This document shows positions 4,593 to 53,006 of a DNA stretch of 64,000 bases, piece after piece. The position numbers were made by a program, and so were the translations under genes. The notes beneath the pieces are model-generated. The model was not told where the DNA came from, searched no databases, and was given only the letters and a program-made list of their open reading frames with translations. This DNA comes from Deltaproteobacteria bacterium RBG_13_43_22. GTDB taxonomy: Bacteria; Desulfobacterota; RBG-13-43-22. The stretch covers positions 1-64,000 of the forward strand of contig MGQB01000036.1 in assembly GCA_001797675.1 (NCBI GenBank), read 5' to 3'. Position 1 is the stretch's first letter, and each line of letters starts with the position of its first letter.

Positions 4593-5480
4593 TTAAATAA
4601 GACCTGCTTTGGACATGATATCAGGAACCAGCTCTTCCCTACCAATAGCCATGATATGAACCCCATCACACATTTTTTCGTCATGTAAGCGTTTGATCAT
4701 TCGACCGGCAATTTCAATCCCCTTTTCAATGGCCCTTCCTTTTGGGGCGGAGGCCATCTCGTCAATCAGATCCTGAGGAACGTTTACACCGGCCACATTT
4801 TTATTCATAAATCTGGCCATGGGTGCCGAAGTGAGGAGAATAATCCCGGCCAAAATCTTAACCGGAAATTGCCTGGCGTAGTTCATGAATTTTTTAAAAT
4901 TATCCAGGTCATAAACGGCCTGGGTTTGAATGAATTCCGCCCCGGCCTCGATCTTCTTTTCAAATTTTAAAAGTTGGGGTTCAATCGGGTTGGCCTCCGG
5001 AGTTACGATTGCACCGGCACAGAAAGAGACTGTTCCTTCCAGCTTATTGCCCCCGAGATCCAATCCCTTTTCCATTTGTCTGATAGCGGCCAGGAGCTGG
5101 CTTGAATCCAGGTCGAAGACGGCTTTGGCCTCCTTATGATCTCCCAGGATAATGGAATCTCCGGTCAGACATAAGACGTTGTTTATTCCTCTGCTGGCGG
5201 CGAACAATAGATCGGCTTCCAGCGCCATCCGATTCCGGTCACGGCAGGTCATTTGCAAAATAGGCTCCCCCCCAAGTTCTTTGACCATAAGAGCACCTCC
5301 CAGAGACGGGAACCGCATCACCGAACTCTGATGATCCGTAATATTCACGGCATCCACCTTGTCTCTCAATAATTCAATATGATGGATCATTTTTTCAAGA
5401 TCGGTTCCTTTCGGGGGAGCCACTTCTGAGGTAACCACGAACCTGCCTGACTGTAAGGCCTTGCTGAATGAAGAAACCAT
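4593..5480 (-). CDS. metF: Methylenetetrahydrofolate reductase, MetF
   Basis: 295 residues, full length for MetF. Reduces methylene-THF to methyl-THF in the methyl branch of the Wood-Ljungdahl pathway or in methionine supply. The conserved catalytic Glu is seen in VVTSEVAPPKG near the N-terminus, and the flavin/folate Asp in CLTGDS. IQTQAVYD and the C-terminal half match the TIM-barrel fold. The track starts at a TTG (5486); I prefer the ATG at 5480, which has GAGG six bases upstream. It is the last gene of the operon, 31 bases after metV. A MetF partnered with MetV normally relies on other subunits for electrons, and the Nuo-like genes upstream fit that role. Confidence 0.92.
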   Translation of the reverse strand: MVSSFSKALQSGRFVVTSEVAPPKGTDLEKMIHHIELLRDKVDAVNITDHQSSVMRFPSLGGALMVKELGGEPILQMTCRDRNRMALEADLLFAASRGINNVLCLTGDSIILGDHKEAKAVFDLDSSQLLAAIRQMEKGLDLGGNKLEGTVSFCAGAIVTPEANPIEPQLLKFEKKIEAGAEFIQTQAVYDLDNFKKFMNYARQFPVKILAGIILLTSAPMARFMNKNVAGVNVPQDLIDEMASAPKGRAIEKGIEIAGRMIKRLHDEKMCDGVHIMAIGREELVPDIMSKAGLI

Positions 5481-9871: not shown

Positions 9872-12520
9872 TCAAGTCTTTTCGATCTTTACATTGATCT
9901 CCTTGAATCCCGGAGAATTCGGAGCCTCCAAAGTCGTTAAGGGGAGTAAATTCCTGGCATCATTTTCATAAAACGCCCGGGGAACAAATATCAATCCGGG
10001 TTTTTGATTTCGCACAACTTTAACTTTTCTCTCTATGCTTCCGTAAGACGAAGATAGGCGGATTTTATCTCCGTCCAGGAGATGAAGTCGTTCCCCATCT
10101 TTTATGGAGACTTCGATCTCGCCGGATAACGGCATCTGGTTTATCCGGTTGGAAGAGCCGGTTCTCGTTCCACTGCCAAGATGGTATCTCCAGGAACCCA
10201 GGATGGCCTTAAATGGGAAATCTTCATCGCGGATATTTTCCTTTAAAGGCACCAGAGGCGAAAACAGGGCTGATTCCCCTGATTCATCCGGATGAAAAAG
10301 GGCCAGATCGCTTTTTTCCTTAATCCAGGAGCTATTCCCGTTTTTCCCCCATTGCGAGTACAGGGGGGCCAGTTCCCGGATTTCATCCCTTATTTTTTCT
10401 ATGGTCCTGTATTGGGCAGGCAAACCCATTTGATTTCCCAAAAAACTCAAGATTTCCCAGTCGGGTTTTGCCTGGCCGGGAGGCGATACTACCGGATCGA
10501 AGGATTGTATTCTTCCTTCCAGGTTGGTGAAGCTGCCCGCTTTTTCACTAAAGGCGGCCCCCGGCAGGACGACATCGGCCATTCTCACGGTTTCACTATC
10601 CAGTATGTCTTGAACAACAAGGAACTCCAGATTATCAAAGGCTTTACGGATCTGCCCGGGTTGGGGAAGACTTCGCAGGGGATTTTCCCCCATGATATAC
10701 ATCGCTTTTAGATTTCCTTCTTCCGCCGCTTCGATCATTTTGATTATATTCAGCCCCGGATCAGGGGATATTTTTATTTTCCAGGCACGGTCCCAATATT
10801 TTCTGATTTCATTATCAACCAAAGATTGACGCCCTGGAAGGAAATCCGGAACAGCTCCCATATCCCAGGCACCCAGAGCATTATTTTCCATGGTTAGAAA
10901 GTAAAATCCTGTACCCCTCTGCCCCAAACTCCCGGTCATTAGGGCGAGGTTGAGTAAAGCGTCAATGACCTCAAGCCCGTTTCTTTGTTGCAGAATCCCA
11001 TGTCCGACTACAAAAACTATTTTCTTTCCGGCCAATAGATCCGCGGCCTTTTCCAATCCTTCCGGTTCAATTTCGGTGACTCGGGATATTTGATCGAGAT
11101 TCATTGCCGATAGTTCTTTAAAATATTCGTCGGAGCCCTGAGTAAAACGTTTGACGAATTGGGCATCGTAGGCCTTCCGATGATAAAGAAGAGCCGCCAG
11201 GCCGTTTATCAGATAATAATCGGTTTGCGTTGCCAGGGGCATCCAAAGTGAAGCAAAAGGGATCAAATCCGTTCTTCTTGGATCCGCCACAATAATCGGA
11301 ACCCCTTTTATTTTTGAGACCCTTTTCAGATGGTAACCCAGCACCGGTAAAGAATGAGTTGGATCGGCTCCCAGGACAAGGACCACTTCGGCCTTTTCAA
11401 GGTCCTTTAAGGGCCCTATCGACATTCCACCCAACCTGCTCTGGAATCGGTTCAATACGGACCTCCCGGTCAGGAATCCGCCATTATCAATATGATTGGT
11501 TTGTAAAATAACCCGGGCTATTTTCTGAAATAAGTAGTTCTCTTCAAGACTGCATTTGGATGAGCCGAAAAAGGCAATGCTTTGGGGACCGTTTTTCTTT
11601 TTGATCGAAAAAAGTTTATCGGTAACCACTGCAAACGCTTCCTCCCAGGTTGCCGGAGAAAGCTCACCATTTTTGCGCAGTAATGGAGTGGTCAGCCTTT
11701 GGGAAGAACTCAAAAAATCATGGGCAAAATGCCCCCGAACGCAAAGGGTGGACTGGTTAATCGAATTTTCGACAGGAGAAGGGTTTACGTCAACGATTCG
11801 GTTATCTTGGATCCCCATAACCAGTGAACACCCCACCCCACAAAAACCGCAGATAGAAGCCATCTCTTTCTGTGGGGAACCTGCGAAAGAAACATTTTTT
11901 ACCGCAAGCGCCCCGGTGGGGCAAATGGATATGCAGGAGCCGCAAAAAGTACAGGAGGATTGTTCCAAAGGTCTGTCATGGACCGTGGCGGGCCGAGACC
12001 TGAATCCTCTCTGGTTGTAATCAATCGCCCCTACCCCAACCAGTTCATGATCGGCCCTTATACATTTACCGCACAGAATACATTTGCTGAGATCCCTGAT
12101 AATGAAAGGATTGGCCTCTTCAAAACCGGTATAATGAGGCATTGGATAAAGATCGTACGTCCCGACTCCCAACTGAGAAGCGATTTTTCTCAACTCGCAA
12201 CGGTTCCCTTTATTGCAGACAATGCAGGATTCCGGATGATTGGCCATGAGGAGGCGGATGATGTTTTTACGGTGTGCTCTGACATTCGGGGAGTCGGTCT
12301 GAACGGATAGATTCTCTGAGACGGGGGTGACACAGGATGCCAGGATGCGCCCGTTTTCATCTTCGACAAGGCAGAGACGGCAAGCACCTATGGGTTCCAG
12401 GTGGGGATGATGGCAAAGGCTGGGGATCCTGATATCGTTTTCTTTGGCGGCATTGAAAACGGTCGTCCCGGCACGACAAACGATCTTCTTTCCATTTATG
12501 GTCAGGTTTATTTCATCCAT
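9872..12520 (-). CDS. NuoG/FdhA-like iron-sulfur protein with molybdopterin-type domain lacking the Cys/Sec ligand
   Basis: 882 residues from the ATG at 12520 (the track start at 12565 adds 15 non-conserved residues). Domains in order: N-terminal [2Fe-2S] (SLCHHPHLEPIGACRLC, then SC); His-Cys cluster NHPESCIVCNKGNRC; two ferredoxin clusters CILCGKC and CTFCGSCISICP; a [4Fe-4S] site CGFCGVGC with LCVRG; then a molybdopterin oxidoreductase fold to the C-terminus. Where NAD-linked formate dehydrogenases have the Mo-binding Cys or Sec (ARLC/U-H), this reads GGFLTGRS, Thr351. No in-frame TGA is involved. Annotation pipelines would likely call it formate dehydrogenase; the missing ligand argues against formate catalysis and for a NuoG-like conduit. 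It sits in the metF/metV operon directly upstream of nuoE. Confidence 0.85.
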   Translation of the reverse strand: MDEINLTINGKKIVCRAGTTVFNAAKENDIRIPSLCHHPHLEPIGACRLCLVEDENGRILASCVTPVSENLSVQTDSPNVRAHRKNIIRLLMANHPESCIVCNKGNRCELRKIASQLGVGTYDLYPMPHYTGFEEANPFIIRDLSKCILCGKCIRADHELVGVGAIDYNQRGFRSRPATVHDRPLEQSSCTFCGSCISICPTGALAVKNVSFAGSPQKEMASICGFCGVGCSLVMGIQDNRIVDVNPSPVENSINQSTLCVRGHFAHDFLSSSQRLTTPLLRKNGELSPATWEEAFAVVTDKLFSIKKKNGPQSIAFFGSSKCSLEENYLFQKIARVILQTNHIDNGGFLTGRSVLNRFQSRLGGMSIGPLKDLEKAEVVLVLGADPTHSLPVLGYHLKRVSKIKGVPIIVADPRRTDLIPFASLWMPLATQTDYYLINGLAALLYHRKAYDAQFVKRFTQGSDEYFKELSAMNLDQISRVTEIEPEGLEKAADLLAGKKIVFVVGHGILQQRNGLEVIDALLNLALMTGSLGQRGTGFYFLTMENNALGAWDMGAVPDFLPGRQSLVDNEIRKYWDRAWKIKISPDPGLNIIKMIEAAEEGNLKAMYIMGENPLRSLPQPGQIRKAFDNLEFLVVQDILDSETVRMADVVLPGAAFSEKAGSFTNLEGRIQSFDPVVSPPGQAKPDWEILSFLGNQMGLPAQYRTIEKIRDEIRELAPLYSQWGKNGNSSWIKEKSDLALFHPDESGESALFSPLVPLKENIRDEDFPFKAILGSWRYHLGSGTRTGSSNRINQMPLSGEIEVSIKDGERLHLLDGDKIRLSSSYGSIERKVKVVRNQKPGLIFVPRAFYENDARNLLPLTTLEAPNSPGFKEINVKIEKT

Positions 12521-12643
12521 TGTTCCAACTTTTATTATTGAACAGATGAAATGCTCATGCCCCAAAACAGTACTGGGTTATCTCCAGGAAAAGACCGGGG
12601 TGGATTGAAATCCTAAAAAACCTCACTATTCTGATGGTTAAAA

Positions 12644-36696: not shown

Positions 36697-36723
36697 TCAA
36701 GTTTTTTCTTTTTAAACCGACAA
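36697..36723 (+). promoter_or_regulatory. Sigma-28 (FliA) type promoter of the flagellin gene
   Basis: TCAAGTTT (36697-36704), 11 bases, ACCGACAA (36716-36723), against the consensus TAAAGTTT-N11-GCCGATAA: 7/8 and 6/8 matches at exact spacing, 130 bases upstream of the flagellin start. Confidence 0.75.
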
Positions 36724-36852: not shown

Positions 36853-37674
36853 TTGGCCAATGAAATTTCCTTAACCTCGGGAATGCGGAGTAATTTAATC
36901 AGTCTGCAGTTGACCACTAAACTTTTAAGTGAAACCCAGACCCGTTTGTCCACCGGTAAAAGGGTGAATACTGTCCTGGATGATCCGGTCAACTACTTTG
37001 CCGCACAGAGCCACACGACCCGGGCGGCCGACCTGGCTTCCCGTAAGGACGGCATGGGGGAAGCCATCAATATCGTAGCCTCGGCCGACAAAGGGTTAAC
37101 CGCCATCACTAACCTATATGAACAGGCCAAAGGTATTGCCACTTCGGCCCTAGCCACCACGGATACCGCTTCCCGGATCTCCTATCAGAACCAATACAAC
37201 ATAGTGATGAGTCAGATCGTCACCATGGCCAAAGATTCCGGGTATAAGGGGACGAATCTTTTAGATAATGGTTCAGTGGATGTCAAATTTAATGAGGACG
37301 GCTCTTCAAAACTAACGGTAAACGGCTTTAATGCGACAAATTTACCGGAAATTGGTTTAGGTTTTCCCTATTTTTGGGGTATCAACGGCGATACCTTTAT
37401 TAACGAGTCCTTGTCGGAGATTAATACGGCCTGTGAGATTATAAGAACCAAGGCAAAGACCCTGGCGGCCAATATGAATGTCATCACCACCCGTCAGGAT
37501 TTTACCACTAATATGATCAATACCCTGAAATCAGGAGCCGATAATTTGACTTTGGCTGACATGAATGAAGAATCGGCTAATATGCTGATGCTTCAAACCA
37601 GGCAGTCTCTGGGTACGACTTCACTTTCTATTGCATCTCAGGCGGCCCAAGCCGTTTTGAAGTTGTTCGGTTAA
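36853..37674 (+). CDS. fliC: Short flagellin
   Basis: 273 residues, starting at TTG (ANEISLTSGMRSNLISLQLT follows the initiator). The N-terminal D0/D1 helices are clear (LLSETQTRLSTGKRVNTVLD) and the C-terminal helices end in LGTTSLSIASQAAQAVLKLFG. The variable middle is almost absent, about 60 residues, so this is a minimal flagellin close to the alphaproteobacterial short type. No other flagellar gene is in the window, and the gene stands alone. A purine-rich GAAAAGGG lies upstream of the TTG. The sigma-28 promoter upstream supports expression with late flagellar genes. Confidence 0.9.
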   Translation: MANEISLTSGMRSNLISLQLTTKLLSETQTRLSTGKRVNTVLDDPVNYFAAQSHTTRAADLASRKDGMGEAINIVASADKGLTAITNLYEQAKGIATSALATTDTASRISYQNQYNIVMSQIVTMAKDSGYKGTNLLDNGSVDVKFNEDGSSKLTVNGFNATNLPEIGLGFPYFWGINGDTFINESLSEINTACEIIRTKAKTLAANMNVITTRQDFTTNMINTLKSGADNLTLADMNEESANMLMLQTRQSLGTTSLSIASQAAQAVLKLFG

Positions 37675-38366
37675 CGACTTGACTGAATAAGACGCCAGTA
37701 ACTAATTAAATAATTTATGGAATCAACTTTCACCGCCTCCACTGATTCTCTTGGATGATGTTCTCGCCTCTTTCAATCGCGAACCCAACCCCGGAGGACT
37801 TATCCCCAATCTCTTGACTAATGTTCTGAACGATATCCCAGCACCCCTGATGGCGTTAAAATCCTCGTAATCTTACCACGTCAGGAATATCTAACGACAA
37901 TCTATGCCCCCGATCATGATGTGGAGCTAAACACCGGGAGCGGCAAGACAAGCTGGTGTATATATTCACTCCCAAATACCACGACTTATCGTGTCAACTT
38001 AAGTGCTTATTAGTGTGCCCGAAAACGACGAAACTGGTTTTGCAACTTTTTCCCGGCGGGATGATAAATTTTCTTAGCCGGGGGTAGTATTTTTTCTAAT
38101 TTAGGTTGTTGAACAGAATTTTTATTGCCATTGAAGATACCGGGAGCAAGCCCCCGGCAATGCGTAACCACAAACAAATTCTATCTTTTTTCTTATCCTT
38201 CACTAGCTTGACGTCCAATTTGAAGAAATGGGCTGGCAAATGGTTATGCTGGCATATTTCTTGATTAAAGATGTCCGAAAGGCAGATTTGAAAGCCTATC
38301 TGTTTTTGTAAGGTCATAAGGTCTTAGCTAAAAATTTAGAATAATAGGCCTAACCCCGCCAGGCTC
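37675..38366. other. Long intergenic region after flagellin
   Basis: About 690 bases without a supported gene. The first 350 bases have codon-like composition but are full of stops in all frames; they may be a decayed gene I cannot identify. From about 38030 the sequence is the leader of the first pilin duplication unit. Confidence 0.5.
38106..38165 (+). repeat. R2-like repeat remnant
   Basis: TTGAACAGAA resembles the R2 end in reverse, and CCGGGAGCAAGCCCCCGGCA, continuing ATGCG, keeps the AA-loop hairpin followed by AATGCG seen in R2. Confidence 0.4.
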
Positions 38367-38393
38367 TAAAGTTTTTCTAAAAAATTCCGATCA
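38367..38393 (+). promoter_or_regulatory. Decayed sigma-28 promoter of the first pilin copy
   Basis: TAAAGTTT (38367-38374), 11 bases, TCCGATCA (38386-38393). The -35 is intact; the -10 has two changes from GCCGATAA. It occupies the position of the perfect promoter in the second unit. Confidence 0.6.
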
Positions 38394-38598
38394 ATAAGTA
38401 GGTATCGTGAATCCGGCAAACCTTTTAGGAAAACTATTGGAGTCTGTAATTCTTCTTTTATTATAAGAATAGAAGGAAAAACAAGGAGCGGGTGATTGAT
38501 CCTTACATTTAACTTAGGCAACTTGTTTGGTATTTGCAGTTAATCATGTATAGGCTTGGGACCTGTAATAAACCAATTAAACCCAAAAAATATCCAGA

Positions 38599-39087
38599 AT
38601 GATATTTACCATTAATAAAAGAATAATCATTTTAGTGGCGTTAACAGCCATCGGCATTCTGGACATGAGCAGTATCTCCATGGCTGCAACCAAAACCAAC
38701 AACCTTAATGTAACGGCATCTGTGGCTACAAACTGTAATATCATCAGCGTGACCGATGTCGCCTTCGGTGCGTATGATCCAACGAATGCGACCGATCTCG
38801 ATGTTAACGGGGATTTGACCTTTCGATGCACAAAAAACACCGCCTTTAAGACGTATATCGTCGGTACTAGGGCGATGGTCGGAGCCGTTAATCTTGATAA
38901 CCTTAACTTCGAGCTTTATACCGATGCAGGACGCACAACGGTCTACCCCAGCACCAACGCGGGCGGCAGTACCGTTACCCCGAATAACAGTCCAATAATC
39001 TCAACGATCTATGGCCGGATCCCAGCTCTTCAGGATGCGAGTATCGATACCTACTCGAAAGTTTTGACGGCCGCAGTAGAATATTAG
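38599..39087 (+). CDS. Spore coat U (SCPU) domain pilin-like protein, first copy with degraded start
   Basis: 162 residues in the track. The protein has a signal peptide (IIILVALTAIGILDMSSISM, then AA) and an SCPU/Csu-type pilin domain (NCNIISVTDVAFGAYDPTN, LTFRCTKNT, YTDAGRTTVYP), about 75% identical to the second copy. Alignment of the upstream DNA shows that the second copy's Shine-Dalgarno AGGAGGA corresponds to AGAATGA here, and its ATG corresponds to ATT at 38611. The only available ATG (38599) lies within the former Shine-Dalgarno and has no ribosome site of its own. It is probably poorly translated or silent, though the reading frame is still intact. Confidence 0.75.
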   Translation: MIFTINKRIIILVALTAIGILDMSSISMAATKTNNLNVTASVATNCNIISVTDVAFGAYDPTNATDLDVNGDLTFRCTKNTAFKTYIVGTRAMVGAVNLDNLNFELYTDAGRTTVYPSTNAGGSTVTPNNSPIISTIYGRIPALQDASIDTYSKVLTAAVEY

Positions 39088-39187: not shown

Positions 39188-39585
39188 ATTTCAACAATGA
39201 TTTTTTCTCATGACTTGGCTTGTAATTCAACAGCGTTCCCAATTATTTTGCAATTTTTTCCCGTTAGGGTGAAAATTTTTCCTTTTCGCGGTGTCGGTTT
39301 TTGGCCAAAACTGATTCTTAAGGGTTTTTTTGAAAAAAATATTGCGGTTGAAAATCCCCGATCCATAAATCAACAAAATTTCAACTGGAAGGATTTCCAT
39401 CTTTTTTCTGATCGCTCATCCGCTTGAAGGCGAATTTTAAAAAAAGGGCCTACTTAAAATTTTTTATTGGCATATTTCTTGATAATAAATCGTCCGATAG
39501 ACAGATTTAAAAACCCTTTCTATCTTTAAGGGTTTCGAGTTTTTATTTTTAAATGTCAAGAAAATAGACCGGACCCCGCCTCCTC

Positions 39586-39612
39586 TAAAGTTTTTTTCAT
39601 TTGTGCCGATAA
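39586..39612 (+). promoter_or_regulatory. Perfect sigma-28 (FliA) promoter of the pilus locus
   Basis: TAAAGTTT (39586-39593), 11 bases, GCCGATAA (39605-39612). Both elements and the spacing match the classical FliA consensus exactly. The transcript would start near 39620 and run into the second pilin gene, about 215 bases downstream. Confidence 0.85.
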
Positions 39613-39834
39613 ATAAGTAACCATAATGAGCCCAAGAACCCTTCTTGGGTAAGTTATGATTATGAAATCCTTCTTTCTTAAAAAAATCGGACACAGAAGG
39701 AAAAAACAAGGAGGGGGTGATACGAAAGATTAAGTCCTTAAAATTATTGTAGTATCGTTGTAAAATTTATTAAAACTTGGGACCTGTATTAAACCATTTA
39801 AACATTAAAATCTATTTTTAGGAGGATATCTATC

Positions 39835-40311
39835 ATGAAAAAAAGATTGATCATTTTAGCGGTTTTAGCCGCCATCGGCATTCTGGCCATGAGCAGTGTC
39901 TCCATGGCCGCCACCAAGACCAACAACCTTCAAGTAACGGCAGCCGTTCAGGCCAACTGTAATTTCATCAGTGTGACCGACGTTGCCTTCGGCGATTACG
40001 ATCCAACCTCCGCTACCGATCTGGATGTAAACGGAGATATGACCTTCCGCTGTACCAAAAATACAGCCTATAAAACTTATCTCGTTGGTACCCGTCAAAT
40101 GGTTGGGGCCGTGAACGCCGACAACCTGGATTTCGAACTCTACTCCGATGCCGGCCGTACCACGGTTTACCCCATCGACAACTCCGGCGGCAGCAGCAAT
40201 GCACCGGATAACAGCCCTATCACCTTAACCATCTATGGCCGGGTCACGGCCCTTCAGGATGTGAGTGTGGATACCTACTCGAGAACGTTGACGGCCACAG
40301 TCGAATATTAG
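39835..40311 (+). CDS. Spore coat U (SCPU) domain protein, main archaic chaperone-usher pilin
   Basis: 158 residues. Signal peptide with Lys-rich start and cleavage after SMA (LAAIGILAMSSVSMA), then an SCPU domain: ANCNFISVTDVAFGDYDPTS, MTFRCTKNTAYKTYLVG, ELYSDAGRTTVYP, ending in VDTYSRTLTATVEY, a beta-strand tail typical of Csu-type subunits. It is expected to be polymerised on the cell surface by donor-strand exchange through the chaperone and usher encoded downstream. AGGAGGA precedes the ATG at good spacing. A terminator follows the gene, which would give excess pilin over chaperone and usher. Confidence 0.9.
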   Translation: MKKRLIILAVLAAIGILAMSSVSMAATKTNNLQVTAAVQANCNFISVTDVAFGDYDPTSATDLDVNGDMTFRCTKNTAYKTYLVGTRQMVGAVNADNLDFELYSDAGRTTVYPIDNSGGSSNAPDNSPITLTIYGRVTALQDVSVDTYSRTLTATVEY

Positions 40312-40408: not shown

Positions 40409-41206
40409 ATGAAGCACAGAAAACCGAGAAAAATTGGGTTTCATTTGAGGGTTTGGGAAATGACGGCTATCGGGCTTTTCCTGGCCTTGTTCCTGGCCAA
40501 TCATTCAGCAGCCGCCAACTTCGACCTCAAACCTATAAAAATATTTTTGGATCCCCAGACCAGAATAGAAAAACTTATCTTGAGGAATGTCAGCGAGGAG
40601 GATTTAACGGTACAGATCAAGGGTTATCAATGGAACCAAAATGAAAAAGGACAGGATATCTATCAGGAAACCAAGGATATTATCATTTTCCCCAGGATTG
40701 CCACCCTTAAAAAAGAGGAAGAAAAAATTGTCCGGATCGGCACCAATCTGAATTCCGGTTCCATGGAAAAGACCTATCGGATATTTGTGGAAGAAATACC
40801 GACCAGCGAAAAGAAAGACACCAGCGGCTCCACGGTTCATATGTATATGAAAATCGGGGTCCCTGTATTCATTAGCCCGGTGAAAAAGGAAGAAAAAGGG
40901 ACGATCGAGGCCGTTCACCTTCAGAAAGGGAAGGCGGAGATTAAAGTGCAGAATAAAGGAAATCTTCATTTCCTGGTAACCGCTGTCCAGATCAAGGGGG
41001 AAAATACCCAGGGAAAAGAAGTCTTTTCCACCGTCATCGGCGGATGGTACATTTTAAGCGGTCTGTCCAAGGCCTATGAGGTTTCCATCCCCCAGGATGT
41101 ATGCAGCAAAATGGACAAACTGACTATTGAAGTCAAGACCAACAATAACGTCATTTTCAAAGAACAGCTTCAGGTGGAAAAACCGATGTGCGGACAATCC
41201 ATATAG
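40409..41206 (+). CDS. Periplasmic pilus assembly chaperone (CsuC-like)
   Basis: 265 residues from the ATG at 40409 preceded by AAAAAAGGAA; the track start at 40352 lies in the terminator. Signal peptide LFLALFLANHSAAA. Two Ig-like domains follow: G1-strand and subunit-binding region FPRIATLKKEEEKIVRIGTN (Arg-rich edge typical of FimC/CsuC chaperones), then YRIFVEEIP. It folds pilins in the periplasm and delivers them to the usher. It is the first gene after the terminator and is followed directly by the usher. Confidence 0.9.
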   Translation: MKHRKPRKIGFHLRVWEMTAIGLFLALFLANHSAAANFDLKPIKIFLDPQTRIEKLILRNVSEEDLTVQIKGYQWNQNEKGQDIYQETKDIIIFPRIATLKKEEEKIVRIGTNLNSGSMEKTYRIFVEEIPTSEKKDTSGSTVHMYMKIGVPVFISPVKKEEKGTIEAVHLQKGKAEIKVQNKGNLHFLVTAVQIKGENTQGKEVFSTVIGGWYILSGLSKAYEVSIPQDVCSKMDKLTIEVKTNNNVIFKEQLQVEKPMCGQSI

Positions 41207-41219
41207 TGACAATGGCCTT

Positions 41220-43769
41220 ATGCCAAAAGGAAAACGAACAGAAAGCACCAAGCTCATTACAACAGGCCGGGCATGTGATTGTTACCCAATGCTGCTTAAA
41301 GACCAAATATACAGGTTTGTCCTGTCCAAAGTTGCACAGGTAGAGACCTATGCCGGACGGCTCTCCTCCCAACTTAACCGGCTGGTCCCGCTAAAAAAAA
41401 TAATAACCCCCCTCTCTTTAATTTTTTTTTCCACCCTTTCGGTAAGCCTTTTCCCCTTGCCGCCGGCCCAGGCCATGGAAACCATTATTCCCGTCATCTA
41501 TCTTAATGAAGAACAAAAGGGCGAATATTTTGTAAAAATGACGGAGGATCATGATTTTTTGATCAAGGCTGAAGACCTTAAAGCAATCGGTTTGCTGGAC
41601 CCCAAGGGGAAGTCCCAGGACGTTGAAGGGATATCCTATCTTTCTCTGAAGTCTTTGGCCAAGGTTACTTTTTTCTTTGATGAAAAAAAACTGGCCCTCA
41701 AGATACAGGCCTCCCCGGAACAGTTGGCCAGAACCGTCCTGGATTTTTCAAATAAACGACAGAAAGCTATCTATTATTCCAAGGAAAACAGCGTATTTTA
41801 CAATTATGGCCTCACCCTCAATGCGGGGAAAGGGTTCAAATATGAATCCTTCAGCACTACCGGTCAATTAGGGATCAGGGTGGGCAATTTCTTATTATTA
41901 TCGGATTCCATTGTTTCCACTACCGGTTCGGAAACAAAATTCAACCGCCTCATGTCCAGTATTACCTATGACCGGCGTGACCGGATGGATGCCTTTGTCT
42001 TTGGGGATTTTTATACTACCTCCGGCAATCTGGGGTCTTGCCAGGTCCTTGGGGGCCTGAGTTATTCCAAAAATTATTCGGCCGACCCCAATGTGATCAA
42101 AAGACCGGTTCAGGGATATCAGGGTTTTGTCACCCTGCCCTCGGAAGTCAGTGTTTATCTGAACGGGGTCCGCATCAAAAGTGAAAAAGTACCGGCCGGG
42201 GGATTTGACCTAAAAAATATCCTGGCCTACGGCGGACGGCAGGATATGGAAATCGTCATCAAAGATGCCTTTGGAAGGGAACAGCACATTGCCAATCCTT
42301 TTTATGTCTCCGATACCCTTCTGTCCAAAGGGTTTCATGATTATAGTTACAACATAGGCTTCCAGAGAAATAATATCGGTGCCAGTGAAGACCAATACGG
42401 TGATCCGGCCTTCCTGGGTTTCCATCGTTATGGTCTGACCAATAACCTGACCGTCGGTTTAAGGGGGGAAGCGGCCGGCGGCCTTTATAACATGGGGCCC
42501 AATTTTTCTTATGGGACTAATTTCGGGGTTTTTGATCTGGCCCTGGCCGGCAGTCGGGACAAAGGAGACAAGTCGGGTTGGGCCGGTTCGGTCAATTACA
42601 CCTTTCAGGGTAAAAGATTTAATACCCGATTAGGTTTTTCTAATTATGCAGAGGATTATGCCACCATTTCCACTTCCGAGAATACCGGTCTATCCCTATC
42701 CGGAAAAACCAAGTATGAAGCCTATGCCGGTGTCGGGTTCGGCACCAAAAGCTTCGGTTCCGTGGGACTCAATTATTCCAAAGCGGTAAAATATGATAAT
42801 GGAGAGAGACAGATTGCAGGTATACTCTATTCGAAAGGCATCGGGAGGAATTTTTCCCTTTCCCTTTCCCTGACCCACACCAATGAAAACGGTCCCGATA
42901 CCAACACCAGGGAAATAGATTTTTTTGTCAGCCTCACCTATTACCCCTGGAAAGAAACAATCATGACCAATACGGGTATGACCGGAGACCAGTTCAGGGG
43001 GAACATACAAGTTCAAAAGAATGCCCCCATAGGGGAAGGCTATGGGTATCGAGCTGCCCTGGACGTTTCGGAAGAGCAGGATAAACTCGTCACCCGCTTC
43101 AGACCCTATTTTCAGTATAAAGGCCCCTATGGGATTTATTCCACCGATATCACCACTTCATTCGGGGGGACCAACAATTATCAAAGCTATCAATTCAACG
43201 CCTCGGGGGCTATTGTTTATGTGGGAAAATCTTTCGGGTTCAGCCGGCCGGTGGACGACAGTTTTGCCATCGTTAAGGTGGGCAAGGTTCCCGGGGTTCG
43301 GGTCTTTCACAATAACCAGCTGATCGGAAGAACAGACCGGTCCGGCACCGCCGTGCTGCCCACTTTCCATTCCTACGATGAAAACCAGATCCGGATCAAC
43401 GACAAAGACATACCCCTGGAGTATGCCCTAAAAAAGGTCTCCAGGATTGTTTCCCCGCCCTTACGCAGCGGCACCCTGATCAAATTTGAGGCCAAAAAGG
43501 TCCAGGCCTTCACCGGAATGCTGACAATAGAAAAAGACGGCCAACGACTGCCGGTGGAATTTCAATTGATCAACCTGAAGAAAAACGAAAAAATCATTTC
43601 CTTCCAGACCGGAAGGGGTGGGGAATTTTTTATTGAGGAGGCCGAGGCCGGCACCTTTCAGGGCTCATTTAAATACGGCGAAAAGAAAGTCACTTTTACC
43701 ATCACCATACCCAAAAGCAATGAGACCATCATCGACGGGGGGGAAATCCATGTCCAGATTCAGCCTTAA
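41220..43769 (+). CDS. Outer-membrane usher (CsuD/FimD type)
   Basis: 849 residues from the ATG at 41220, 14 bases after the chaperone stop; the track start at 41127 overlaps the chaperone by 80 bases and is less likely. A late hydrophobic segment with AQA cleavage site (SVSLFPLPPAQAME) shows a long N-region. The N-terminal domain (VIYLNEEQKGEYFVKM) binds the chaperone, and the barrel with plug contains VSVYLNGVRIKSEKVPAGGF and IANPFYVSDTLL, as in archaic ushers. C-terminal domains follow from about residue 690. It translocates and polymerises pilins. The gene end overlaps the next SCPU gene by 20 bases. Confidence 0.9.
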   Translation: MPKGKRTESTKLITTGRACDCYPMLLKDQIYRFVLSKVAQVETYAGRLSSQLNRLVPLKKIITPLSLIFFSTLSVSLFPLPPAQAMETIIPVIYLNEEQKGEYFVKMTEDHDFLIKAEDLKAIGLLDPKGKSQDVEGISYLSLKSLAKVTFFFDEKKLALKIQASPEQLARTVLDFSNKRQKAIYYSKENSVFYNYGLTLNAGKGFKYESFSTTGQLGIRVGNFLLLSDSIVSTTGSETKFNRLMSSITYDRRDRMDAFVFGDFYTTSGNLGSCQVLGGLSYSKNYSADPNVIKRPVQGYQGFVTLPSEVSVYLNGVRIKSEKVPAGGFDLKNILAYGGRQDMEIVIKDAFGREQHIANPFYVSDTLLSKGFHDYSYNIGFQRNNIGASEDQYGDPAFLGFHRYGLTNNLTVGLRGEAAGGLYNMGPNFSYGTNFGVFDLALAGSRDKGDKSGWAGSVNYTFQGKRFNTRLGFSNYAEDYATISTSENTGLSLSGKTKYEAYAGVGFGTKSFGSVGLNYSKAVKYDNGERQIAGILYSKGIGRNFSLSLSLTHTNENGPDTNTREIDFFVSLTYYPWKETIMTNTGMTGDQFRGNIQVQKNAPIGEGYGYRAALDVSEEQDKLVTRFRPYFQYKGPYGIYSTDITTSFGGTNNYQSYQFNASGAIVYVGKSFGFSRPVDDSFAIVKVGKVPGVRVFHNNQLIGRTDRSGTAVLPTFHSYDENQIRINDKDIPLEYALKKVSRIVSPPLRSGTLIKFEAKKVQAFTGMLTIEKDGQRLPVEFQLINLKKNEKIISFQTGRGGEFFIEEAEAGTFQGSFKYGEKKVTFTITIPKSNETIIDGGEIHVQIQP

Positions 43770-44223
43770 TCTTTTAGGGGTCTTTTTATTTTGCCTCTTT
43801 TTCACAGTTGAGGCCTATGCCGCCGCTGACTGTAATTTTCAAACCGTAACCGACGTCAACTTCGGCAGTTACGATGTCTTGTCCGGTCTTAATAATGATT
43901 CAACGGGCAGTTTAACCGTATCGTGCTCCGGCCAAACCTGGACTACGGTTACTACCTCCATCGGCGCCAGTCCCAATTCCGGAGGTTTCAATCCAAGGCA
44001 GATGCTCCAAGCCAGTGGAACAGACCTGCTGAATTATAATCTTTATACCAATTCCACCAGGACCACCATCTGGGGAGACGGCACCCAGGGCACCTCAACC
44101 GTTACTACCAGTATCCATAAGAATCACCCTTGGAACGGAACGATCTACGGACGCATCCCGCCGGGTCTGAATGTGGGGATAGGGACTTATAGTGAAGCGC
44201 TGGTGGTCACAATAAATTTTTAG
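43750..44223 (+). CDS. Spore coat U domain protein, probable pilus tip or adaptor (CsuE-like position)
   Basis: 157 residues from the ATG at 43750, overlapping the usher end by 20 bases; the track start at 43618 lies deep in the usher gene. Signal peptide LGVFLFCLFFTVEAYAA, then an SCPU domain (ADCNFQTVTDVNFGSYDV, LTVSCSG, YNLYTNSTRTTIWGDG, TIYGRIP). Last gene of the operon, where csuE (tip adhesin) lies in Csu systems. It is about the size of one domain, whereas CsuE has two, so the tip may be simplified. Confidence 0.85.
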   Translation: MSRFSLNLLGVFLFCLFFTVEAYAAADCNFQTVTDVNFGSYDVLSGLNNDSTGSLTVSCSGQTWTTVTTSIGASPNSGGFNPRQMLQASGTDLLNYNLYTNSTRTTIWGDGTQGTSTVTTSIHKNHPWNGTIYGRIPPGLNVGIGTYSEALVVTINF

Positions 44224-44315: not shown

Positions 44316-44837
44316 TTACCTTTTCTTCCGTTTATTATCCAGATATTCCACCGGCTGGACCGAGATGGTAAAAGGCCAGGGATATAAGCCGGGGGTTGTA
44401 TTTTTGGAAAGAATACCTCGATAACTTAATTCAATGGTCTCCTTTTTCAGCCGGGTATAGGGTTGAAGGATAAAGGCGTTTCCGTTTTCCAATTGGGCCG
44501 GATTGTTCAGCCCTTGAATATGAACCTCCTTGAAAGGCCCCAGGGACCCCTCAAAGGCCAAAAGGTATCCATTCGGATTGTTGCTTTCCACCTCAAAAAG
44601 GGAGACCGAGGGAAGTTCCAGATAGCCTCTTTGAACATCCGGTTGGGAAATCGTAATCTCCGGCAGCTGGAAAAGGATATTCAAATGCAGGCGCGGAGGG
44701 ACCGTAGCCCTGACATTTAATTCTGCTGCCCAAAGGACGGGGACGGTTTCGTTGGAAGGCAGGAAAGTAATGAGAAATACTATAGGGATGAGGACAGTCA
44801 AGTAGAGGGTAAAGTATTTCAGTTTAGAAATAACCAT
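44316..44837 (-). CDS. Secreted protein of unknown family, paralogue A
   Basis: 173 residues. N-terminal signal (LYLTVLIPIVFLITFL) with a likely cleavage near VLWAAE. The mature part is beta-rich: PRLHLNILFQLPEITISQPD, VQRGYLELPS, NPNGYLLAFEGSLGPFKEV, and a closing GLYPWPFTISVQP. It is clearly homologous to the protein at 44974-45462. I do not recognise the family. It converges on the pilus operon with a 92-base gap and may be a surface or periplasmic accessory; that is by position only. Confidence 0.75.
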   Translation of the reverse strand: MVISKLKYFTLYLTVLIPIVFLITFLPSNETVPVLWAAELNVRATVPPRLHLNILFQLPEITISQPDVQRGYLELPSVSLFEVESNNPNGYLLAFEGSLGPFKEVHIQGLNNPAQLENGNAFILQPYTRLKKETIELSYRGILSKNTTPGLYPWPFTISVQPVEYLDNKRKKR

Positions 44838-44973
44838 CGTCCTGGAATCGGCTTATTCATTCTCTTCTTGGTTAATCTTTTTAACTCATCCTCTCAAAAA
44901 AAACAAGAAAAAGATAGGTCAAAATCAATCGGCTGGAATTTTTTAGAAGGTTCCTGTGGATGATCCGGAAGAT

Positions 44974-45462
44974 CTATCCCGGATGGACGGAGATGGAAAG
45001 AGGCCAGGCATAGGAGCCGGGTTGGGTATTTTCGGAGAGAATAAAGCGGTAACTCAGATTCATGGACACCTTGCCCTTTACAGAAGGCTGGAAAACGACG
45101 GCCTGGCCGGAATTAAGCTGAAGGGGACTGGCCAGCCCTTGGATCCGGACCTCTTTAAAGGGCCATAAGGATCCTTCAAAAGCCAACATGTAACCGGAGG
45201 GGGAGTTGGTTTTCACCTCCAGGCGGGAGGCCGAAGGCACATCAAGATAACCCCGCTGGATATCCGCTTCGGTGATCTGGATTTCCGATACTTGAGAGAT
45301 AAGATTAACCTGAATGTAAGGCAGGACCCGGGAAGATACGGTCAGTCTGGCTGTCTTTATCACAGCGAAGGTTTCTTGTGCGCTCAGGAATAAATGAAAA
45401 ACCAGCGCCGCTGCAAAGGCAGCCACACCGACACCACACCATTTCAGTTTAGGAGGACACAT
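44974..45462 (-). CDS. Secreted protein of unknown family, paralogue B
   Basis: 162 residues. Signal peptide GVAAFAAALVFHLFLSAQET with cleavage around TFA. Shares with paralogue A the segments DIQRGYLDVPSASRLEV, SPSGYMLAFEGSLWPFKEVR, IQGL.SP.QL, and GSYAWPLSISVHP. The two genes are tandem with a 136-base gap. The bases just before its ATG contain AGGTCCCAAGCCT, the reverse complement of the AGGCTTGGGACCT seen in the pilin leaders. Confidence 0.75.
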   Translation of the reverse strand: MCPPKLKWCGVGVAAFAAALVFHLFLSAQETFAVIKTARLTVSSRVLPYIQVNLISQVSEIQITEADIQRGYLDVPSASRLEVKTNSPSGYMLAFEGSLWPFKEVRIQGLASPLQLNSGQAVVFQPSVKGKVSMNLSYRFILSENTQPGSYAWPLSISVHPG

Positions 45463-45997
45463 AGGCTTGGGACCTTTATTGTAATCTGCTCCTTTTCCGT
45501 GGGTACTAAGCTAACATACACACCGTCAAAAATCAAGCAAAAAACTTCTTTTTTTAAATTTTTTCAACCCTAACGCCAAATACTTGTCACATTAAAACCT
45601 ACCGTTCCGGTCCCTTCATGATCTGCAACTTTCCCTATAATCCCTTTAATCTTTTTTATCCTTTTTATCCCTTTAATCGCTTTAATCCTATTTCCTTGAA
45701 CCTTTTTTACCGTCTTTTACAGAAATGACATATCAGAACTTTAGTACCCCTGTTATTGAAATACCACACAGTTGCCAGTTCCATGATTCTTTGAATCCCT
45801 GTTCTCAGCTATTCAAGTTAAACGGAAAAAAAACCGATAAAATCCTATCCAAAGATATTTGAAATTTTTCTGTGGCGAGGTGCGAGTTTCGGGTAGCGAA
45901 GTTAGAGAAAAATTCTCAGATTACAGAAGTAACCATCTATAAAGGAATGGGGAAAAATAATCAGAACGGCTGGTAAGAGTCGGCAAGGCCAATAATC
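45463..45997. other. Intergenic region with a sigma-28-like site
   Basis: 535 bases. It holds the promoter region of the paralogue B gene, a run of iterated CCTTTTTATCCCTTTAATC words (about 45640-45690), and a sigma-28-like site on the plus strand: TCAAGTTA (45813-45820), 12 bases, ACCGATAA (45833-45840). Spacing is one over optimum. No gene is supported. Confidence 0.5.
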
Positions 45998-52027: not shown

Positions 52028-52855
52028 TTAGTCAGCAAAAAAACTTTCCGCCTCAATTCTTGAGCCGTAAAGTTTTTCACCGATAACGGCTACTCCCTTA
52101 CTGTCTATCCCAAGTTCAAGGAGGATGACATGGTGTTCCTCGGTCCACAAACCGTCATCTTCAGTTCGTGGGCCGTACATCCGGGACATGGCCTCGGCCA
52201 GAGAAACAATGGAAACCGAATCTTTGAATTCCTTTGCCTCGGAAGGAAGGTGATGATGCCGGATGGCCGAGATGATCTCTGAGGGCATGCCGGAAGTTTC
52301 GGCAAACCAGGCTCCGGCCTCGGCATGCGTACAGCCGAAAATCCCCCTCTCCTTTTCGAGCATGTCATCGGCAGTTAAAATTTTATGAAATTGCTGGTGA
52401 TCCATTTGATAAAAAATAATCCTTCCAATATCATGAAGCAAGCCTGACAGAAAACACTCCCTTGGGGAGGTTATGGTCACAAAATCTGAAACCACCGAAG
52501 CGATTAAGGCCACCTCATAACCATGAATCCATAGGTTTTTAATATTGAAGGAGTTTTGATGGGGAAATATTTTCAGAACATTCATGCCGATGGCTATCGA
52601 TTTTATCCTTTCGAAACCCAAAAACATAATAGCCTGTCTGATGTCCCGAATCTGACCCGAGTGGCCGAAAAAGGGGGAATTGGCGGACCGTATGACCTGT
52701 TCAGCCATGGCCTGGTCATGGGCAACCAAATTGTCAAGGTCTGAAATGGAGCAGTCCTCTCTTTGGGTAATAGAGAGTATCTTCCCGAGCAATGCGGGAA
52801 TGGTGGAAAGATTATCAATACCCCGAATAAAATATTTTACCTCATTAGCATCCAT
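52028..52855 (-). CDS. HDOD-domain signalling protein
   Basis: 275 residues, a single HDOD domain covering most of the chain: NLSTIPALLGKILSITQRED, AHDQAMAEQVIRSANSPFFG, RDIRQAIMFLGFERIKSIAI, and the remnant HD motif GLLHDIGRII. HDOD proteins are thought to be non-catalytic regulators of signalling or motility. It is transcribed in the same direction as the kinases downstream but is separated from them by 278 bases with their own promoter. Confidence 0.9.
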   Translation of the reverse strand: MDANEVKYFIRGIDNLSTIPALLGKILSITQREDCSISDLDNLVAHDQAMAEQVIRSANSPFFGHSGQIRDIRQAIMFLGFERIKSIAIGMNVLKIFPHQNSFNIKNLWIHGYEVALIASVVSDFVTITSPRECFLSGLLHDIGRIIFYQMDHQQFHKILTADDMLEKERGIFGCTHAEAGAWFAETSGMPSEIISAIRHHHLPSEAKEFKDSVSIVSLAEAMSRMYGPRTEDDGLWTEEHHVILLELGIDSKGVAVIGEKLYGSRIEAESFFAD

Positions 52856-53006
52856 TTAATTCATCCCAACCAAGTAATGATCAAAATATCTCCGAAGACC
52901 ACCAGTGCAGACCATCAATAATATATCGGCAGGTAAATCAAAAAACTTTAGTCCCCTGACCCCCGGCAAGGCCGGGGGTTACCCTAAAAGGAATTTAAAT
53001 CCCCCG

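Follow-up and report, generated by a model that had tools for sequence, protein, structure and literature searches.

A predicted sigma-28 (FliA) promoter precedes an archaic chaperone-usher pilus operon in a deltaproteobacterial genome and recurs in part of its phylum

The 64,000-nucleotide stretch of DNA that we analyzed ('the window') contains a cluster of pilus genes, a flagellin gene located upstream of it, and several predicted promoter elements (Table 1). Downstream of the main SCPU-domain pilin come the genes for a PapD-like chaperone, an usher and a further SCPU protein, in that order. The window encodes three SCPU-domain subunits in total, and the usher and a Csu-like chaperone lie within the same gene cluster. 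Because the chaperone is nearest to CsuC, and the last subunit nearest to CsuA/B, among solved structures, we assign the locus, at the level of its genes, to the archaic, Csu-type chaperone-usher pili. The pilin and its upstream region are duplicated within the window, a feature that an earlier reading made from the sequence only (the 'sequence-only reading') had overlooked.

Table 1. Genes and sequence features of the pilus locus and its surroundings (positions in the window)
Feature	Position	Strand	Evidence or remark
Sigma-28-like site of flagellin	36697..36723	+	3 mismatches
Flagellin, orphan copy	36853..37674	+	Outside flagellar cluster (contig C23)
Sigma-28-type promoter of duplicated pilin, predicted	38367..38393	+	TAAAGTTT-N11-TCCGATCA, 2 mismatches
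Duplicated SCPU pilin	38599..39087	+	76% protein identity to main pilin
FliA-type promoter of main SCPU pilin, predicted	39586..39612	+	Exact motif, matrix 22.94 bits
5' leader of pilin mRNA, 222 nt (predicted)	39613..39834	+	Hairpin at its beginning, just past expected start site
15-bp element AACTTGGGACCTGTA	39774..39788	+	Common to both pilin leaders and accessory gene
Main SCPU-domain pilin, archaic chaperone-usher	39835..40311	+	PF05229, 82.5 bits (cut-off 22.4)
PapD-type periplasmic chaperone	40409..41206	+	PF00345; nearest solved relative CsuC, E=1e-10
Outer-membrane usher, ORF as listed	41127..43769	+	PF00577, 107 bits
Second SCPU subunit, probably tip	43750..44223	+	PF05229, 100.2 bits; CsuA/B match E=0.009
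Accessory secreted protein (predicted)	44316..44837	-	Aligned to C-terminal domain of c-di-GMP-receptor-like protein; no Pfam match
Second accessory secreted protein (predicted), same family	44974..45462	-	Same alignment; no Pfam match; predicted beta-sandwich
Further sigma-28 site TAAAGTTT-N12-GCCGATAT	52923..52950	-	Found by flagellar/chemotaxis matrix

The region upstream of the main pilin contains an exact TAAAGTTT-N11-GCCGATAA sequence, in which the elements of a sigma-28 promoter (TAAA(GTTT)-N11/12-GCCGATAA) are found at the correct spacing. The motif occurs once in the window, against an expected count of zero in 100 dinucleotide shuffles of the same stretch (p=0.0005 for the site relative to 2000 dinucleotide shuffles of its own upstream region), in agreement with the sequence-only reading, which had described it as a perfect FliA site. 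It is also the sole zero-mismatch match at N11 spacing in the 3.23 Mb assembly; a further perfect match, at N12 spacing, is located upstream of a chemotaxis receptor (MCP) gene. The end of the motif is separated from the pilin start codon (ATG, 39835) by 222 bp. The fold of this leader as a whole displayed no extra stability relative to shuffled sequences (z -0.61), and an Rfam search of the 36-46 kb region returned no RNA family. A sigma-54-like block (TGGCATATTTCTTGAT) is kept upstream of both pilin copies of the window (39466-39497 and 38248-38279); as a candidate sigma-54 promoter of this genome's pilins it is a partial match that lacks the -12 C, and we do not claim it as such.

The genome encodes a cognate FliA (TIGR02479, 248.6 bits versus a cut-off of 189.6), within a flhB-flhA-flhF-flhG-fliA-cheY cluster (gene names assigned by eye from the translations). 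Pattern searches of the assembly and of fetched stretches identified sites with up to two mismatches and a recognisable target (one of them at N12 spacing) at three pilins, at flagellin, MCP and CheW genes, at a histidine kinase gene, and at a small ORF and a response regulator inside the flagellar cluster; three more sites of this quality had no convincing target. The best flagellin site deviates by one mismatch. At the three-mismatch level the matches were mostly noise (58, versus 77 for a reversed control pattern). A weight matrix trained on seven flagellar and chemotaxis sites, from which the pilins were excluded, ranked the main pilin site joint first with the MCP site among the genome stretches scored, and placed the site of a third pilin (22.57 bits; contig C10) level with the best flagellin site. 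With the same matrix, simulated intergenic-like sequence totalling 1.5 Mb gave only three sites above 17 bits. The additional site that the matrix identified in the window lies upstream of an HDOD/HDIG-type gene (52028-52855), at a distance of 68 bp.

The pilin of contig C10 is a paralog with 68% identity, and its site (TAAAGTTT-N11-TCCGATAA) contains a single mismatch; the site of the duplicated pilin in the window was also distinguishable from shuffled sequences (p=0.0025). Upstream of the pilin, copies 1 and 2 are on average 60% identical. Relative to copy 1, the promoter elements are kept at 14 of 16 bases in the duplicate and at 15 of 16 in the C10 copy, and the spacers at only 5 of 11 positions in each of the two comparisons. 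The coding sequences differ by a dS of about 0.9 and a dN of about 0.15 and 0.23 (dN 0.15 and dS 0.93 for the duplicate versus the main pilin), a pattern of diverged copies under apparent purifying selection. A pseudogene interpretation of the duplicated pilin was dropped in view of a dN/dS of about 0.16 and an intact frame, although alignment places its start at an ATT codon and it has a weak Shine-Dalgarno sequence. The site of the C10 pilin (locus L119, about 4739-4792) ends 9 bp before the ATG, and the corresponding mRNA would therefore be nearly leaderless.

The sequence-only reading had tied the pilus promoter to the neighboring flagellin. That gene is real, and a sigma-28 site of its own is indeed found 2.89 kb upstream of the pilin site, but it is a weaker match. 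The flagellin has a TTG start codon and a weak Shine-Dalgarno sequence (the other four small flagellins, of 272-273 amino acids, start with ATG) and may be poorly expressed. The link does not depend on this neighbor: relatives in which no flagellin was detected show the same pairing of pilus and sigma-28 site. Co-expression of motility and pili would still be the natural expectation for this genome.

The conservation of the site was examined across the phylum, in which 23 of 395 genomes contain SCPU genes (none was found in the two same-genus and two same-family genomes searched). At 29 loci, of which this genome contributes three, the best N11/N12 site within 350 bp upstream of the first SCPU gene was compared to 2000 dinucleotide shuffles of the respective region, using site weights that were fixed from the general consensus before this test and left untuned. 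With this genome's loci excluded, sites were enriched at the 18 loci from genomes with a FliA above the cut-off (Fisher p=5.6e-9) and not at the 8 loci from genomes without one (p=0.59); the tested loci are phylogenetically related to one another (including within family f27), so that these p-values are not independent, although they treat the loci as if they were. Clear sites are present in family f27 (genomes G066, with TAAAGATT-N12-GCCGATAA, G424, G421 and G423) and in family f58 (G321 and G219). Weaker ones were found in f27 genomes G343 and G422 and none in G418, which places a site upstream of the first pilin in six of seven f27 operons (p<0.03). Several of the f27 sites deviate from the consensus by 2-5 bases, and that of the duplicated pilin by 2. 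No site was found at the SCPU operons of f58 genomes G411 and G413, nor at those of six other FliA-positive families (f25, f43, f8, f67, f54 and f24). Conservation of the site at the same gene in other genomes is borne out in f27 and f58 but not in the other six families, and because of those families we regard the pilus/sigma-28 link as recurrent in the phylum and not general. Its distribution points to a recurring arrangement rather than a local accident.

The best-supported reading of these observations is that FliA transcribes the archaic pilus operon of this genome, which we consider probable. The promoter claim of the sequence-only reading is supported at this level, in that FliA is encoded, the sites resemble the genome's own flagellin, MCP and CheW sites, all three pilin paralogs keep them, and the SCPU operons of other families carry sigma-28 sites only where FliA is present. 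It is unlikely that the site is instead a relic, copied as a flagellin promoter along with the neighboring flagellin, or a minor element next to a sigma-70 or sigma-54 promoter that does the main work. A flagellin does lie 2.9 kb upstream with a sigma-28-like site of its own, and the sigma-54-like block is kept at both pilin copies in spite of its missing -12 C, but the sigma-28 elements have persisted in three paralogs as diverged as a dS of about 0.9, the contig of the C10 paralog holds none of this genome's six flagellin matches, and the arrangement occurs independently in f27 and f58 with no flagellin neighbor. We find it more doubtful still that a different sigma factor of similar consensus uses the sites; further sigma-70-family factors exist in these genomes, but they score below the FliA cut-off and are equally common in genomes without sites, whereas the sites track FliA and are also found at flgM, flagellin and chemotaxis genes. 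Least probable of all is that the AT-rich motif arose by chance in intergenic DNA rich in T, since despite an upstream G+C content of 31% and an easily generated -35 side (TAAAGTTTTTTT), no exact match appeared in shuffled DNA, the matrix score is far above all simulated intergenic-like DNA, and the site recurs at paralogs and, in other families, only together with FliA.

From the sites, their enrichment, the gene content and the neighborhoods, all of which are directly observed, we infer how FliA might act on this operon. The main pilin site would be bound as a working sigma-28 promoter, FliA-RNA polymerase would start about 7 nucleotides downstream of GCCGATAA, and a single transcript would include the pilin, chaperone, usher and tip genes. 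The pili would then be made late in the flagellar programme, after the export of FlgM has released FliA.

Csu-type pili such as those of Acinetobacter (CsuA/B-C-D-E) and Pseudomonas (CupE) resemble the present locus in their SCPU pilins, CsuC-like PapD-type chaperone, usher and second SCPU subunit. The difference lies in the promoter, which here belongs to the flagellar sigma-28 class; the regulators are BfmRS for Csu and PprAB for CupE. Accounts of pili and flagella usually set the two programmes against each other, so that a cell either attaches or swims. The class III regulon of FliA in E. coli, Salmonella and Desulfovibrio ferrophilus shares with this genome its consensus and its flagellin, MCP and CheW targets, to which a pilus operon appears to be added here. 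In D. ferrophilus, FliA sites are located at fliC, ycgR, cheW and mcp (PMC9769857). The presence of a sigma-28 site at a pilus operon, in three paralogs and in distant families, suggests that in some bacteria attachment fibres belong within the swimming programme.

In family f27, flagellin (PF00669, searched with this one profile) was not found in five of the six genomes tested, in all five of which FliA was found: G066 (99% complete), G225 (96%, one contig), G421 (95%), G343 (92%) and G422 (75%). The sixth, G424, is a metagenome-assembled genome with 3% contamination, and its flagellin is located on a 3.2-kb contig with FlaG-, FliD- and FliS-like frames. Within the fliA neighborhoods of the family no flagellar gene was recognised. 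Next to fliA (whose product in G066 passes the NCBIfam FliA model NF005413, 222 versus 201) lie genes for an NtrC-type response regulator and, in divergent orientation to the regulator, for a small FlgM (PF04316, 34.6 and 41.1 bits, cut-off 25), so that FliA and FlgM are both present.

A strong sigma-28 site is located at the flgM start in all eight f27 fliA loci that include flgM. Across the 145.6 kb that the f27 fliA loci span together, a score of 14.9 or above is reached at only eight sites; every one is at the flgM start, and each of the eight regulator-containing loci holds one. In some loci the site coincides with, or lies downstream of, the listed start of the FlgM frame, so that the true flgM start must be further in. 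In addition, a near-perfect sigma-54 site is positioned 44-129 bp before fliA in 8 of 8 f27 loci (p<=0.002 for each); this site is absent in the genome studied here and in G321. The overall arrangement resembles the upper tier of a flagellar cascade that has no flagellum beneath it.

A second sigma-28-like site precedes the gene that follows the pilin(s) in five of six f27 operons (G424, G421, G422, G423 and G418, p<=0.0015; none in G066). The accessory gene was not found in G343, in which a sigma-28-like site is instead located upstream of the chaperone. The G066 accessory product contains three MshE-type c-di-GMP-binding domains (NF053729, 159.5 bits, cut-off 38), and further has a hydrophobic segment and a C-terminal domain. 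Such a protein suggests a direct c-di-GMP input to the chaperone-usher pilus. The accessory proteins of the window (44316-45462) are homologous to the C-terminal domain alone, without the c-di-GMP part; the model of one forms a beta-sandwich, with a pLDDT of about 90 or above over most of the domain, that has only weak similarity to proteins of solved structure, including the pilins FimG and CfaB. Copies of the gene include those at L098 7432-8520 (-), L146 4410-5489 (+) and L110 6294-7394 (+), and relatives; they share an architecture of MshE-type domains, which form three stretches in the protein of L098, with a hydrophobic segment and, at the C terminus, a beta domain. In the open-access literature searched, we found no paper linking FliA to archaic pili and none on a c-di-GMP-receptor-like gene of archaic pilus operons.

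We infer from this gene content a circuit in which f27 would have kept the FliA/FlgM pair, with an NtrC-type regulator adjoining a fliA gene that has a putative sigma-54 promoter, with feedback by FlgM made from a sigma-28 promoter of its own, and with the archaic pilus and its c-di-GMP-receptor-like partner gene as an output. That the FliA/FlgM circuit has turned into a flagellum-free regulator of pili is plausible, and in our estimation an even call. There is precedent for such retention, though not for a pilus target, in non-flagellated Legionella oakridgensis, where nothing of the flagellar regulon but FliA and FlgM is left (PMC5655016). The two resemble each other in having kept both sigma-28 and anti-sigma-28, and differ in that f27 has a sigma-54 promoter and NtrC-type regulator adjoining fliA and, as its identified target, a chaperone-usher pilus in place of virulence genes. 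The f27 order of sigma-54, then fliA, then late genes is also that of the hierarchy of polar flagellates (FleQ/FlgR type), but with no flagellar structural gene around fliA and with pili in the late tier.

The fuller proposal stands equally in the balance: that in f27 the cascade outlived the flagellum (the NtrC-type regulator and sigma-54 acting on fliA, FlgM providing feedback, and FliA driving pili together with an MshE-type membrane protein that has a periplasmic domain), and that in flagellated lineages FliA drives both organelles. A regulator of swimming seems to have been adopted for pili, including in relatives apparently without a flagellum, and a pilus output would be one possible reason that sigma-28 genes survive flagellum loss. 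The presence of FliA and FlgM without a detected flagellin raises the question of how FlgM is removed if there is perhaps no flagellar export gate.

In G066, a divergent sigma-28 site with one mismatch (L098 10083-10109, +) is located upstream of a gene (10175-12565) that lies back to back with the pilus operon and encodes a 796-residue, lipoprotein-like product with no Pfam match. In family f58, where flagellin was not found in four genomes searched with the one profile, flhA, flhB and fliP adjoin fliA in G411. At three f58 loci (L172, L173 and L183), flhG-fliA or fliA is followed by a HEAT-repeat-like protein, CheR and more chemotaxis genes (two CheY-like, a possible CheZ-like and CheA).

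The 15-bp element of the pilin leader belongs to a set of three copies in the window (CTTGGGACCT[G/T]TA; 38553-38567, 39774-39788 and 45464-45478) and was confined to the pilus cluster among all DNA stretches searched. It is the best-kept block of the pilin leaders (93%), and its copy at the accessory gene is inverted relative to that gene.
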